Source: Parcubacteria group bacterium GW2011_GWB1_45_10 | Lineage (GTDB): Bacteria > Patescibacteriota > Minisyncoccia > UBA6257 > Brennerbacteraceae | Reading direction: 5' to 3' | Length of the DNA stretch: 42,595 nt | NCBI GenBank assembly: GCA_001001185.1 | Contig: LCKC01000002.1 | Location: forward strand, 1-42,595 | Shown here: one piece after another, positions 25,388 through 42,595 of the stretch | Layout of the letters: every line of letters begins with the position of its first letter | Numbering within the stretch: the first letter of the stretch is position 1 | Notes under the pieces: model-generated | The model's input: only the letters and a program-made list of their open reading frames with translations | The model's database searches: none | What the model was told of the DNA's origin: nothing | Position numbers and translations under genes: made by a program

Positions 25388-27421
25388 TTAACGTATCTTT
25401 GCGCCGATGTCTTCAAGCTTTTGAGTGATTTTTTGCATCTCAACGTCAACTTCTTTATCCGTCAAAGTTCTGTCCTTTACCCGGAAAATCAGATGGAACG
25501 AAAAGCTTTTTTTGCCGGATTTCTCAAAAACATCAAACAGCTCAAAGCTTTCAATCAATTGAGATTTTATCTTACCAGCAACTTTTGAATATTCAATGTT
25601 TTTATCAATGAAAAACGAAATGTCGCGTTTCAGAACCGGCAAACGATTGATTCCGCGGAAAGTTTTCGCCAGGCTTTGTTTTTTCAGAAGCTCATTCAGA
25701 TTAACCTGGGCATAGCTCACCGGGCCTTTTATCCCGTACCACTCAAGAAGCGAACCTGGCAGATTGACAGCGTGACCAAAGTTTTTTCTTGAACCCTTGA
25801 AACCAAACGGCAATCTTTTCCCGCCAAGCTCATAAACTTCAGGGTTTTTAAAAACAACCTCGCCGAGCCCAAGGCTTTCAAAAACCCTTACCAGACTTCC
25901 CTTAAGCTCCAAAAACTGCTCCTGGGCGCGGCCATGGCCAAAGACTGCCAGACCAAGACTAATGGTTTCGTCCGGCAGACTGTTTTTTTGTTTGCTAAAA
26001 ACATGGCCAGTCTCAAAAATCTTAATTCGGCTGAAGTTTTTCGCGTTCTCGGAAACATTTCTCAAGATTCCCGAAGCCAGGCTCCGCCTCAGGTAACGGT
26101 AGTTCTCCGAGGTTGGTTTTTCAATCTCCAGATAATCTTTTTTCCCGCCAAGTTCGCGGCGCAAAATCTCAATGTCCGACTCCCGCAAAAGCGAATAGTT
26201 CATCACTTCGTCAAACCCAAGCTTTACCAGCTCATCCTGAATCCGCCATTTCAACTCAATCTCTTTTTCCGTTTCCGGCGCCTGAATGTTTTCGGCCACG
26301 GTTTTTGCCGGAATCTTGTGGTAGCCAAGATAACGCAAAACCTCTTCGGCAACGTCTTGTTTAATCTTCAGGTCCTGCCTTAAGCTGTCAAGCTCCAAAA
26401 CAAACGCGCCTTTCTTCAGTTTTTTAATTTTTGTCGTCAGGGTTTTGAAAACTTGAATCGCTTCGTTTGGTTTAACCGGAAAACCGATGATTTTTTCAAT
26501 CTCTTCAAGGCTGATGGTGATTTTTTTCGGCAGCGATTTTTTCGGATAAACATCAACAAAGCTTGAAGCCATCTCGGCGCCGCAGATTTCCTGAAGCAAA
26601 ACCGCGGCTCTTTGAATCGCTGTTTGCGTCAGGTTCGGATCAAGGAAGTTTTCAAACCTTGTCGAGGCGTCGGTTTTGACGCCGGTTGAATGCGAACTTT
26701 CCCTGATGTTTTTCGCTTCAAAGTTTGCCGCTTCAACAACAATTTCTTTTGTTCCAGCGTCAATCTCGGCAAACTGGCCGCCTTTAATGCCAGCCAAAGC
26801 CAGGACTCTTTTTTCGTCGGCAATCAAAAGTTCACTACCTGAAAAAACCAGGCGTTTGCCGTCAAGCGTCGTCATTTTTTCCTTTGCCTCTGCCAAACGG
26901 ACAATAATCTTCTTTTTTTCCTGAGCTTTTGTCGCTTGTCGCTTGTCGCTTGTCGCAAGTTTTCCATAGTCAAACGCGTGCATTGGCTGACCAAGCTCGA
27001 GCATAACATAGTTCATAATATCGACAACCGGGCTGATTGGACGCAAGCCGCAGTCTTCAAGCCTTTTTCCCATCCAGAAAGGCGTCCGGCCGGGCTTTGA
27101 CAGCCTGGCGTAAAGCGCGGTGTATCTTTGGCAAAGACTTTTTTTCCGGACATCAACTTTAAGAAACTCTTCGGTTTTGAAGCTTGATTTTTTGTAAGCG
27201 ATTTTCAGCGGCCTGAGATTTTTTTTCAAAAGAAAACCCAGTTCCCTGGCAACGCCAAGATGCCCGGAAGCGTCGCCGACGCGGTTTGGCGGCAGTTTAA
27301 TCTCCAGATTTTCGCCGGACAGTTCCGTGTCAAAGGCGTAACGGTTCAAAAAATCTGCCAGCTCCCTGGGAGATTTTTTGAAACCAACGATGTCTTTCAG
27401 CCAAGTATAAGAAAACTTCAT
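25388..27421 (-). CDS. pheT: Phenylalanine--tRNA ligase beta subunit (lacks N-terminal tRNA-binding OB fold)
   Basis: MKFSYTWLKDIVGFKKSPRELADFLNRYAF directly followed by IKLPPNRVGDASGHLGVARELGF; B3/B4, B5 and C-terminal FDX-ACB-like region. Confidence 0.95.
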   Translation of the reverse strand: MKFSYTWLKDIVGFKKSPRELADFLNRYAFDTELSGENLEIKLPPNRVGDASGHLGVARELGFLLKKNLRPLKIAYKKSSFKTEEFLKVDVRKKSLCQRYTALYARLSKPGRTPFWMGKRLEDCGLRPISPVVDIMNYVMLELGQPMHAFDYGKLATSDKRQATKAQEKKKIIVRLAEAKEKMTTLDGKRLVFSGSELLIADEKRVLALAGIKGGQFAEIDAGTKEIVVEAANFEAKNIRESSHSTGVKTDASTRFENFLDPNLTQTAIQRAAVLLQEICGAEMASSFVDVYPKKSLPKKITISLEEIEKIIGFPVKPNEAIQVFKTLTTKIKKLKKGAFVLELDSLRQDLKIKQDVAEEVLRYLGYHKIPAKTVAENIQAPETEKEIELKWRIQDELVKLGFDEVMNYSLLRESDIEILRRELGGKKDYLEIEKPTSENYRYLRRSLASGILRNVSENAKNFSRIKIFETGHVFSKQKNSLPDETISLGLAVFGHGRAQEQFLELKGSLVRVFESLGLGEVVFKNPEVYELGGKRLPFGFKGSRKNFGHAVNLPGSLLEWYGIKGPVSYAQVNLNELLKKQSLAKTFRGINRLPVLKRDISFFIDKNIEYSKVAGKIKSQLIESFELFDVFEKSGKKSFSFHLIFRVKDRTLTDKEVDVEMQKITQKLEDIGAKIR
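26929..26956. repeat. Perfect heptamer tandem TTGTCGC x4 inside pheT
   Basis: Directly visible; encodes part of KLATSDKRQATKAQ. Confidence 0.95.
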
Positions 27422-30448: not shown

Positions 30449-33058
30449 TTAAACAACGAAGTTGACGATTTTATCTTTGACAAAGATTGTTTGTTTCAGT
30501 TTTTTACCCTGAAGCCACTTGGAAACTTTCGGCGACATTGAAGATTTTTTGACAATCTCTTCCTGAGACATTGAAAGCGGCGCCGTCAAAGTGTCGCGGA
30601 TCTTACCGTTCACCTGAATCGCATAAACAAAACTTTGTTTTTTGAACAGCGCCTCGTCAAACTTCGGCCATTTCCCGCTCTCAATCAATGTTTTATTGGA
30701 AAACGACCAAACCTCTGACGCCAGATGCGGCGCAAACGGATAAAGCAGCAAAATGAACTGGCTCAAAAAATCTTTCCGGTCTTTTTCCGAAAGCCTGGTT
30801 TTGGCGTCAATAAAACCGTTCAAAAACTCCATCTGCGCCGAGATGGCAGTGTTAAACTGCATGGCTTTAATGTCTTCAGTGACTTTTTTGATTGTCTGAT
30901 GCAGCAACCGCTTAATTTTATTTGTTTCTTCTTTGTCGGGTTTGTTTGTTGATTGGTTGCTTCTGGTTTTTTGTTTTTTGTTGTAAGTTTTTTGTTGTAA
31001 GTTGATGGCGGTTTGCCAGACACGGTTCAAAAACCGGTAAATGCCGACAATGCCGTTGGTATCCCAGGGTTTGGCTGCTTCCAAGGGTCCCATAAACATC
31101 TCATATATCCTGACAGAATCGGCGCCGAACTTTTTGACAATCTCGTCCGGATTAACCACATTGCCGCGGGACTTTGACATTTTTTCGCCGTCGCTTCCCG
31201 AAATCAAACCCTGGTTGACAAGTTTGGCAAAAGGTTCAACGTCAGGCAAAACCCCGAGGTCAAACAAAAACTTATGCCAAAAACGGGCGTAAATCAAATG
31301 ACGGGTGGCGTGCTCAACGCCGCCGACGTAAAAATCAACCGGAGACCAGTACTCCAAAATTTTCCTGTCCCAGAATTTTTTCGCCTGGCTGGCTTTCAAC
31401 TTTATCTGCTTGTTTCCCAAAGCAAAAGCCAGATAATACCAGCAGGAACCGGCCCACTGTGGCATGGTGTTTGTTTCCCTTTTTGCTTTTGAACCGCAGT
31501 TCGGACATTTAACATTGACCCAAGATTCAATATTCGCCAAAGGCGACTCGCCTGTGCCCGTCGGCTCGTAATACTTAACTTTCGGCAAAGTTAAGGGCAG
31601 GTCTTTTTCTTTCAAACCAATCCAGCCGGGATTCATCGCTTCTCCTAAAGAGAAACCTAAATTTCCAATTTTCAGTTTCCAATTTTCAATTTTTGAAATT
31701 TCATTGGTAATTGGTAATTGGTAATTGGCGTTTTTAAGTTTATTGTGGCAATTTTCACAATAAACCAAGGGCATCGGTTCGCCCCAGTATCTTTGCCGGT
31801 CAAACCCCCAGTCTTCAAGTTTGTAGTGGACCGCTTTTTTGGCGTTCATGAAGTTCGCGATTTTTTCCTGAGCCAGCTTTGGCGGCGTCCGGTCAAACGG
31901 CCCGGAATGAATCAGAACGCCGTCATCAACGTCAGTGTAAGCTTCATCAAGCAAATGCTCCTGGCCGTCCGGCGAGATTACCTCAATAATCTCGAGCGCG
32001 AACTTTTTCGCGAACGCAAAGTCGCGTTCGTCGTGCGCCGGCACACCCATGACCGCGCCGGTGCCATAAGTCATCATCACGTAATCAGCCACCCAAACAG
32101 GCACGCGTTTGTGGTTCGCCGGATTAACAACGTAACTGCCGGTAAAAACGCCGGTTTTTTCTTTTTCCGCTTCGCGGGCAAGCTCGGTTTTATTTTTGCT
32201 CTGGCTGACATACTGCCTGACGCGCTCGCGGTTTTCCGCCGTCGTCAGCTTGTTGACTAACGGATGTTCCGGCGCCAACACCAGAAAAGTAACGCCAAAG
32301 ATCGTGTCGAGTCTGGTGGTGAAAACTTTGATTTTTTCAGGAATCCCCGGTGACGCAAATTCAAACTCATAGCCGAAAGACTTGCCAATCCAGTTTTTCT
32401 GCATTTCTTTAACACCTTCCGGCCAGTTCAGCGGCTTCAAGTCCTGTAAAAGCCTGTCAGCGTAATCCGTAATCTTCAAAAACCACTGACGCATTGGCCG
32501 GCGTTCAATCTCTGACTTACAGCGCTCGCAGCGGCCGTTTTCCAGATCTTCGTTCGCCAGCCCGGTTTTGCAGGACGGACACCAGTTAATCGGCCTGATT
32601 GACTGGTAAGCCAAGCCTTTTTCAAACATCTTCAAAACAATCCACTGTGTCCATTTGTAATACTCCGGGTCGCAGGTTGAAACCTCCCTTGTCCAGTCGT
32701 AAGACAAACCAATCGTTTCTGATTGTTCGCGGAAATGATTGATATTTTTTTGAGTGATTGCCAGAGGATGAACCTTGTTTTTAATGGCGTAGTTTTCCGC
32801 GGGCAAACCGAAAGCGTCCCAGCCCATCGGATGGAGCACGTTCAAGCCCTGCATCCGCAAAAAGCGCGAATAAATGTCAGTCGCGGTATAGCCTTCAATA
32901 TGCCCGACGTGCAGCCCGTCGCCCGACGGATACGGAAACATATCCAGAATGTAAAACTTTTTCTTTTTGGAAAAATTTTCCGCCTGCCAGAGCCTGAAAT
33001 TTTTCTTTTTCCAGGCTTTCTGCCACTTTTTTTCTATTTGGTTATGATTATATTTCAT
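30449..33058 (-). CDS. leuS: Leucine--tRNA ligase
   Basis: MFPYPSGDGLHVGHIEGYTATDIYSRFLRMQG, NWCPSCKTGLANEDLENGRCERC, KMSKSRGNVVNPDEI. Confidence 0.98.
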   Translation of the reverse strand: MKYNHNQIEKKWQKAWKKKNFRLWQAENFSKKKKFYILDMFPYPSGDGLHVGHIEGYTATDIYSRFLRMQGLNVLHPMGWDAFGLPAENYAIKNKVHPLAITQKNINHFREQSETIGLSYDWTREVSTCDPEYYKWTQWIVLKMFEKGLAYQSIRPINWCPSCKTGLANEDLENGRCERCKSEIERRPMRQWFLKITDYADRLLQDLKPLNWPEGVKEMQKNWIGKSFGYEFEFASPGIPEKIKVFTTRLDTIFGVTFLVLAPEHPLVNKLTTAENRERVRQYVSQSKNKTELAREAEKEKTGVFTGSYVVNPANHKRVPVWVADYVMMTYGTGAVMGVPAHDERDFAFAKKFALEIIEVISPDGQEHLLDEAYTDVDDGVLIHSGPFDRTPPKLAQEKIANFMNAKKAVHYKLEDWGFDRQRYWGEPMPLVYCENCHNKLKNANYQLPITNEISKIENWKLKIGNLGFSLGEAMNPGWIGLKEKDLPLTLPKVKYYEPTGTGESPLANIESWVNVKCPNCGSKAKRETNTMPQWAGSCWYYLAFALGNKQIKLKASQAKKFWDRKILEYWSPVDFYVGGVEHATRHLIYARFWHKFLFDLGVLPDVEPFAKLVNQGLISGSDGEKMSKSRGNVVNPDEIVKKFGADSVRIYEMFMGPLEAAKPWDTNGIVGIYRFLNRVWQTAINLQQKTYNKKQKTRSNQSTNKPDKEETNKIKRLLHQTIKKVTEDIKAMQFNTAISAQMEFLNGFIDAKTRLSEKDRKDFLSQFILLLYPFAPHLASEVWSFSNKTLIESGKWPKFDEALFKKQSFVYAIQVNGKIRDTLTAPLSMSQEEIVKKSSMSPKVSKWLQGKKLKQTIFVKDKIVNFVV
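30967..31001. repeat. Heptamer array inside leuS
   Basis: TTTTTTG TTTTTTG TTGTAAG TTTTTTG TTGTAAG. Confidence 0.85.
31662..31731. repeat. 70-bp, 10-unit degenerate heptamer array inside leuS
   Basis: TTTCCAA TTTTCAG TTTCCAA TTTTCAA TTTTTGA AATTTCA TTGGTAA TTGGTAA TTGGTAA TTGGCGT. Confidence 0.92.
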
Positions 33059-39991: not shown

Positions 39992-40843
39992 TCAAAGCAT
40001 GTAAGCGTAGGCCTGCTTCTGAAAATAAAAAGCGATTTTTTTGATTAAATCTTTGTTTTCCGAAACCAACAGCCAGTCTTGCTCCAAAATCCGGCTAAAA
40101 TCAGCAAAAGCTTTGGGGCTGATTTTTTCGCCGGGAATGTTTTTCTTTTTTGAACACTCCGGACAAAAACTCCGGCCGTCAAAAAAAACCGCGATTTCGT
40201 TATTTAATTGTTTTTCACAGCCAAAACAACGGAAAAAATCAGGCAAAAATCCGAGCTTTTTCAAAACCAGCAGCACCAGCTCGGCTTCAAAAAGATCCAA
40301 GTCAAGCTCGGTTTTTAAGGCAAAACTTGTTTCCATGGTTTTTAAATATCCGGCCCAAAACTGAAAAACTTCGGCCGGCGCCAAAACCCTGGCTTGATGA
40401 TGCTTGAAAAACGGAAAAGGCAGAAACTCGCTGATAAACCCGGCATTTTTCAAAACGTTTTTTAAAGCCGGGTGACTGCTTCTGATTCCGGGAAAAGAAA
40501 GCTCTTCCAAGGCCTGGGTAATCTGGAATCCTTTTGCAGACTCAATCACCTCAACCCAGGAAAAATTCGGCGGCTCAAGATGGCCGACCAGTTTTGATTT
40601 CGGTTTCAAAACGCTCCGGGAGATCGCTTCAATCTTGCCAAACTCCCGGCTAAGCAGAAAATAACGCCGGTCATGCTCGCCGACGTTTTTGTAAGAAAGA
40701 ATAAACGCTTTGAGAGAATGGGTAATCAAGAAATAATGATTGTCGGTTTGAATATATCTATCAAACCACTTTATCAAAAATCCTCCGCTTAATAAAGCGG
40801 CTCTGCCCCGACAAACGCTTTTTTGCTTATTCTTTGTCGGCAA
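39992..40843 (-). CDS. recO: DNA repair protein RecO (start codon uncertain; likely downstream of 40843)
   Basis: LKAFILSYKNVGEHDRRYFLLSREFGKIEAISRSVLKPKSKLVGHLEP; zinc-binding CFGC...CPEC. Confidence 0.85.
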   Translation of the reverse strand: MPTKNKQKSVCRGRAALLSGGFLIKWFDRYIQTDNHYFLITHSLKAFILSYKNVGEHDRRYFLLSREFGKIEAISRSVLKPKSKLVGHLEPPNFSWVEVIESAKGFQITQALEELSFPGIRSSHPALKNVLKNAGFISEFLPFPFFKHHQARVLAPAEVFQFWAGYLKTMETSFALKTELDLDLFEAELVLLVLKKLGFLPDFFRCFGCEKQLNNEIAVFFDGRSFCPECSKKKNIPGEKISPKAFADFSRILEQDWLLVSENKDLIKKIAFYFQKQAYAYML

Positions 40844-41471
40844 ACACCACCAGCCGCTTGGAGTAGCTTTTTAAAGCTTTGTTCCAAATCCCCCCGCAAG
40901 TAATCAGGTTAAGATGCGGCTTCCCGTCGCTTGAAACAAACACGCCTGAAGCGTCCGCTTTCGGGTCGTAATTCCGGATTTCGCGCACGACAAAGACAAT
41001 CACTGCCCCTTTGTCGTCTTCAATATACAACTTGTCGCCTTTGCGCAATCTGTGCAAATCATCAAACACCGAGGCTTGCTTGTTTTTCCAGCCGTAGTGC
41101 CCGGCAATCACCGCGCTGCCATTTTCACCGGGACGCGGCCCAAGATTAAACCAAGCGGCGTCAGCGCGTTTTTTGGGCGCATCCATGGCTCCATCCGGCG
41201 CAAGGCCCACGTATTCAACAACGGCGTCAACATTGATGCTTGGAATTTTAAGGCGCGTTGGCAGCCCGAAAACTGATTGTTCTTGTTCTGAAAAAGAAAC
41301 AGCATTCCCGGGAAACAACGCCAAGTTGTCCTTTACTTGCATACTCGCGCCGCTGAGACTCCAGTAAAACGAACCAGCAGACAAATTGGCGATGAAATAA
41401 GCGGGAAGCATCAAAGAGAATGCCAACGCCGCAAAGACAACCGTTAATTTTGATAAGATTTTCAATAGCAT
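40827..41471 (-). CDS. Sortase family protein
   Basis: TM, RLKIPSINVDAVVEYVG, ENGSAVIAGHYGWKNKQASVFDDLHRLRKGDKLYI, LNLITCGGIWNKALKSYSKRLVVFA; start taken at MLLKILSK. Confidence 0.93.
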   Translation of the reverse strand: MLLKILSKLTVVFAALAFSLMLPAYFIANLSAGSFYWSLSGASMQVKDNLALFPGNAVSFSEQEQSVFGLPTRLKIPSINVDAVVEYVGLAPDGAMDAPKKRADAAWFNLGPRPGENGSAVIAGHYGWKNKQASVFDDLHRLRKGDKLYIEDDKGAVIVFVVREIRNYDPKADASGVFVSSDGKPHLNLITCGGIWNKALKSYSKRLVVFADKE

Positions 41472-41499
41472 GAATTTTTTCCAAAAAGTTAGCGACCCG

Positions 41500-41531
41500 C
41501 AAGAGCCAGGCAAAAACTCGCCTGGCTCTTG
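41500..41531. repeat. 12-bp perfect-stem hairpin between surface-protein gene and sortase gene
   Basis: CAAGAGCCAGGC aaaaactc GCCTGGCTCTTG; no following T-run. Confidence 0.8.
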
Positions 41532-41561
41532 TTCATCAATGCTTCGCAATGCTCGAGTCGA

Positions 41562-42595
41562 TTAAACTCTTTGCTTTCTTTGAATGAAGTAAAAGAAGAT
41601 TGAAACCGCAAAGATGACAGCCGGAATGACGATATTCCAAGGAATATTGTTGTCGCCGGGAGCAATCCCCGTATTCGGAAAACTGATGCCGAGCACTTGG
41701 GGACTGAGCACCACAACCGTCGCCAGCGAGTAATCAATCGCAGTCAAACCATTGGCGCTTCCTTCGGCCGTGCCGGTGTTTGTCGTTGTTTGTGTAAGGT
41801 TAGTTTGACAGGTGAAGCTCCATGCCTCATTGCTTTCAAGCAGATTGTTTTGGTTAAGGTCTCCCGGATGTCCGACAACGCGGCCCGGCAAACCAGTGCA
41901 TTTATTGTCAATGACACTGACATTGTTTAACGGCTCCGTGCCGGGATTGGTCACGATATACATGTAAGTAACTGCTCCGCCGCCAACGGGAAGAACGAAG
42001 ACATTCGGCTTTTTTACCAAATGAATTAATGGCGGCGTTAACGGCACACTGACGACAACGGTTGCGTTCGCCGTATCAATCGCCGTGATGCCATTGCCCT
42101 GGCCAGTCGCAGTCACGGTATTGGTGGTGGTTTGCGAAAGCCAAGGGTATTGGTGGTGGTTTGCGAAAGCCAAGTGGTGCAGCGATACTTCCAGACTTCT
42201 TGCTCTTCAAGCTTTGAGTTGCTGTTGGTGTCTCCAGAAACAAAAGTTACGGGAGAGCATTGGTTGTCAGCAACATTTATGTCACTCATGGTAACTATGC
42301 CGATGTTCAAAACCGTATAGTCGTAAGTCACTGATCCCGGTCCGGAAGGCAAGGCTAAAGGAGTCGGGACTTTCAAAATGCTGATAAATGGCGGGATAGG
42401 ATCTGAACCAGGCGTGGAGGGTTGAGAAGGAGAGGGCGGGATTGCGCAAACTGCTTTGGTAACAGTGTTCGCATCCAACGTAACCGCGCCGTTCCGCGCC
42501 AACACTCGGCCCTCAACATTGGCACCGGTCGTCAGTGTGACTGAAGTCAAAGCCAGGATATTTCCTTTAAAAACAGAGTTGGCTCCGAGCGTTGC
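41562..42595 (-). pseudogene. Sortase-anchored surface protein: DUF3494 (ice-binding-like) C-terminus + DUF11-like repeats + FPNTG sorting signal; frame broken; 5' end beyond window
   Basis: ATLGANSVFKGNILALTSVTLTTGANVEGRVLARNGAVTLDANTV; two TTTNT..G.GNG.TAIDxxxATVVV segments; GISFPNTG + TM + RKQRV; ORFs 42113-42550 and 41562-42173 join if one 29-bp copy is removed. Confidence 0.8.
42117..42174. repeat. Perfect 29-bp tandem duplication
   Basis: GGTATTGGTGGTGGTTTGCGAAAGCCAAG at 42117-42145 and 42146-42174. Confidence 0.98.

Follow-up and report, generated by a model that had tools for sequence, protein, structure and literature searches.

The window analysed here, a stretch of 42,595 bp that comprises one entire contig (C2) of a draft genome of 25 contigs and 495,887 bp, harbored a perfect 29-bp tandem duplication that divided the gene of a predicted surface protein into two reading frames. 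Judging from its size and its relatives, the genome is Patescibacteria-like. This duplication was probably an assembly artefact (a probability of roughly three in four), in which two pieces overlapping by 29 bp would have been abutted without being merged. The artefact was the better supported reading because of the position of the repeat near a contig end, the presence in this assembly of three more conserved genes whose frames are broken by indels of tens of bases, and the absence of the duplication from relatives.

The duplication and the interrupted gene

The 29-bp unit, GGTATTGGTGGTGGTTTGCGAAAGCCAAG, was found as two exact head-to-tail copies (Table 1), the second of which ended 421 bp from the end of the contig, and no further occurrence of this sequence was detected in the whole assembly. 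The run of matching bases equalled the period, and homology extended by 0 bp beyond the unit in either direction. Exact tandem duplications whose unit reached 20 bp were observed only twice in ~494 kb of this genome, which indicates that the one in the window did not arise by chance. The other one, located at C25:1786-1868 just upstream of a 337-codon frame, comprised 2.24 copies of a 37-bp period, with 9 bp of extra homology.

Since 29 is not divisible by 3 (29 = 2 mod 3), the minus-strand gene was split into two frames. A sequence-only reading of this DNA had claimed that a perfect 29-bp tandem duplication breaks the frame of a surface protein, and this was borne out by the exact copies and by the two ORFs. 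It had also stated that deletion of one copy gives a continuous frame to the FPNTG motif, and the arithmetic was correct, with 989 − 29 = 960 nt, corresponding to 320 codons.

Table 1. Coordinates of the duplication, of the interrupted gene and its neighbor in the window, and of the other frame breaks identified in the draft genome.
Feature	Position	Strand	Remarks
Duplicated 29-bp unit, copy 1	42117-42145	+	exact match, run exactly 29
Duplicated 29-bp unit, copy 2	42146-42174	+	exact match, run exactly 29
5′ fragment of the broken gene	42113-42595	-	ORF open at contig end; TGA stop (42113-42115) immediately past the duplication
3′ fragment of the broken gene	41562-42173	-	mechanical ORF; TTG start inside the duplication; no signal peptide
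Ice_binding domain (DUF3494, PF11999)	42458-42595	-	family profile match; C-terminal 46 of 208 positions
First DUF7507 repeat (PF24346)	42161-42391	-	match below family cut-off
Second DUF7507 repeat (PF24346)	41754-42032	-	match above cut-off
Cell-wall sorting signal	41565-41681	-	FPNTG (41667-41681), hydrophobic segment, RKQRV tail
Sortase, class F-like	40827-41549	-	directly downstream; Pfam PF04203, 1.6e-24
TyrRS (tyrosyl-tRNA synthetase) break	C5:31344; gene C5:30427-31586 (L017, L179)		net -52/-55 nt; 419 bp from contig end
Break in conserved predicted membrane protein	C14:11838-11856; gene C14:10837-12359 (L027)		no Pfam match; net -64/-67 nt; 521-539 bp from contig end
Mur ligase break	C21:13149; gene C21:12710-13883 (L034)		net -113 nt; 1627 bp from contig end

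The N-terminal part of the gene falls past the contig end, and the remaining DUF3494 positions were absent from the assembly; homologues begin with a signal-like sequence. The possibility that this N-terminal half had been placed on another contig was rejected, as none was recovered by exact end overlap, by shared words or by the Ice_binding family. On the other side of the duplication, the 3′ fragment retained all the components of a sorting signal, that is, an LPXTG-like motif, a hydrophobic segment and a basic tail. The adjoining sortase scored 124 bits against the NCBIfam class F model, below its 166-bit cut-off, and a second sortase was found in contig C10. Judging from these matches, the gene product is predicted to reside at the cell surface and to have an ice-binding-like fold. 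The sequence-only reading had called it an anchored adhesin. The anchoring was supported by the FPNTG motif, the hydrophobic helix, the RKQRV tail and the sortase neighbor; the term adhesin was a guess, the recognised domains being DUF3494 and DUF7507.

A chimera joined at the duplication was also considered and rejected. The two fragments were alike in GC and GC3 and resembled the adjoining sortase gene in both, so that there was no sign of a contig end derived from another organism.

Homologues, ancestral state and constraint

The comparison with 12 other genomes revealed 13 homologous frames, all of which (13/13) presented a single copy of the unit, with no insertion, and were open through the site, indicating that one copy is the ancestral state. 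The arrangement found in the window recurred in other sortase-anchored DUF3494/DUF7507 proteins of Patescibacteria, with the same domain order, sorting signal and sortase neighbor; unlike the broken gene described here, these homologues were intact single-copy genes. In a Candidatus Nomurabacteria contig (JAHFNH010000003.1), for example, an intact protein of 558 aa ended in an LPKTG signal and was followed by a sortase, and in genome G045 the arrangement was also intact, with LPATG and then a sortase. The LPKTG or LPATG of the homologues lay at the position equivalent to FPNTG. No homologue of the gene was found in the genus mate (G001) or in four family members, nor was any relative identified in viral contigs. 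Both copies of the unit encoded Trp (TGG) where the 13 homologous frames had Thr (CTTWLSQ versus CTTTLSQ).

The part of the gene downstream of the duplication showed pN/pS values of 0.19-0.42 against five homologues, compared with 0.38-0.45 between pairs of homologues, and values of 0.31-0.53 were obtained for the upstream part. These ratios point to purifying selection on the downstream part, and both halves look constrained. No further stop or frameshift was found in either fragment. A pseudogene undergoing decay was rejected on these grounds, namely the lack of any other disabling mutation and the low downstream pN/pS. Given that no second stop or shift was present and that constraint was retained, the duplication, if real, must be recent.

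Frame breaks elsewhere in the draft genome

A survey of frame breaks was carried out by comparing the genome to which the window belongs with ORFs from parts of three relatives, namely the genus mate G001 and the family members G002 and G005. By homology, the survey covered 346-352 kb of this genome, in which only genes shared with the three relatives were visible. Besides the 29-bp gain in the window, three credible frame breaks were identified, on contigs C5, C14 and C21 (Table 1), all of them net losses. In the Mur ligase of C21, the middle and C-terminal domains lay in different frames. Four other, weak candidates (C1:7546, C4:32706, C14:4331 and C20:4436) were rejected on inspection, as they look like antisense or non-genic ORFs, and two more (C5:6717 and C12:2850) were set aside for low scores. 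Single N bases were also noticed at C7:37185 and C8:2062, which may mark places where scaffolding left a gap of unknown size.

A cell without TyrRS is not viable, and the broken gene on C5 was the only TyrRS found in the assembly; this break is therefore an assembly error beyond reasonable doubt. The broken sole TyrRS of this draft genome could mislead analyses of gene content. Three of the four breaks, including the one in the window, were located no more than 540 bp from a contig end. Such terminal zones amount to 5.4% of the genome, and the binomial probability of this clustering was 6e-4, with a cut-off chosen post hoc.

Regarding the genomes used as controls, no frame break was found in the 409 kb covered in G005, and two and three sites were found in G001 and G002, respectively. 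One site was inspected in each of the latter (G001c6:60574 and G002c10:12789), and both corresponded to runs of N inside a gene that look like mis-sized scaffold gaps or, less probably, a masked stretch. Hence, for the two sites inspected, breaks of tens of bases in related drafts trace to joins.

Origin of the duplication

The mechanism proposed for the window would start with two assembled pieces sharing a 29-bp overlap inside a single surface-protein gene. These pieces would have been set end to end near the low-confidence end of C2 with the overlap left unmerged, so that the unit was written twice, and the true gene would be an ordinary intact one, encoding a sortase-anchored DUF3494/DUF7507 protein with a single copy of the 29 bp. 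We infer both this mechanism and a common cause shared by the duplication and the other three breaks. The junction itself is consistent with such an event. Simple slippage between short direct repeats normally leaves microhomology, whereas none is expected when pieces with a 29-bp overlap are abutted, and the absence of any microhomology in the window favours abutted overlapping ends over simple slippage. This is only moderate evidence, since 8 of 11 real duplications lacked bordering repeats in a case that has been studied in detail (PMC4169377).

Similar events have been reported in other assemblies. In the genome of Vibrio fischeri ES114, contig ends had been misassembled in tandem, breaking ORFs (PMC2330054). 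As in the window, adjoining sequence was duplicated in tandem and an ORF was broken; however, those artefactual expansions involved 318-1264 bp of a Sanger-era assembly and were proven by PCR, whereas the putative artefact described here involves 29 bp of a draft metagenome-type assembly. Local assembly errors are also common in draft genomes from metagenomes, and 13 of them were fixed in a single CPR genome (PMC7111523). Those errors were likewise short and corrupted coding sequences, although they were recognised by missing read support, and the one proposed here is deduced from the assembled sequence. Some observations stand against an artefact. The other three breaks were net losses, whereas the window presented a gain. 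In addition, an exact overlap of 99 bp between contig ends, seen in one case, suggests that the assembler used long words of 99 bases, into which the 58-bp array would fit; consequently, an error would need to have arisen at a smaller word size, during scaffolding or during extension.

A real and recent 29-bp tandem duplication, present in the sampled strain or in part of its population and acting as a plain loss-of-function mutation, is a possible but unlikely alternative. The identity of the two copies and the lack of decay elsewhere in the gene, where the downstream pN/pS did not exceed that of the homologue pairs, would fit a very recent origin, and tandem duplications of 9-60 bp are known to arise de novo in genes of bacteria, in many cases with no repeats at their borders (PMC4169377). 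If the duplication were real, the protein would end after the first DUF7507 repeat and lose its sorting signal, being secreted rather than anchored. However, the repeat lay close to a contig end in an assembly in which this class of error was demonstrated, it was absent from all 13 homologous frames, and it was devoid of microhomology.

The sequence-only reading had left the choice between a phase-variation site and an assembly artefact, and only the latter gained support, from the contig end, the other three breaks and the single-copy relatives. Phase variation would require frequent gain and loss of the second copy, with the surface protein alternating between an anchored and a released form. 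The repeat is exact, the loss of one copy would restore the frame, and the target is a surface protein. Furthermore, reversible tandem duplications inside ORFs have been described for pneumococcal capsule genes (Waite 2001 and 2003, as cited in PMC4022640) and for a β-lactamase gene, in which duplications reverted at 9.3e-7 to 3.6e-5 (PMC4169377). These precedents show that switching is possible in principle, without implying that it occurs in the present gene. The capsule system resembles the window in having an exact tandem duplication that breaks an ORF, with the frame restored if one copy is lost; however, reversible switching was shown there, whereas a single allele with no sign of recurrence was found here, for which an artefact is the better explanation. 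Moreover, the array comprised only two copies and no bordering direct repeat that could account for recurrence, none of the 13 homologous frames was duplicated, and an assembly error is simpler. A search for direct, inverted or same-strand complementary repeats as a trigger found none bordering the unit, and other pairs were at background level. Thus, phase variation had no specific support in this case and is very improbable, and it is equally hard to credit that the duplication is both real and unstable and that the species switches a sortase-anchored ice-binding-like protein between anchored and secreted states.

Programmed -1 frameshifting, by which the two frames would be re-joined and the duplication tolerated, is the least plausible of the explanations and can be regarded as extremely improbable. 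In principle, the downstream frame could be regained by a -1 shift within the repeat, but no slippery heptamer of the X XXY YYZ type was seen in frame through the repeat when the sequence was read by eye, and no homologue needs such re-joining. The unmerged overlap of two assembled pieces remains the reading to be preferred, and caution is advised when exact, short, gene-breaking duplications lie close to the ends of contigs in draft genomes of the metagenome type, for which calls of phase variation or pseudogenes are premature before the reads are checked.

Other short tandem repeats were observed in the window, within intact frames. A heptamer, TTGTCGC, was repeated four times at 26929-26956 in a pheT-like frame, where it appears to add a short peptide insert. 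At 31660-31728, 3.7 copies of ATTGGTA were placed beside a 14-mer repeat in a leuS-like frame, with a short peptide insert also apparent.
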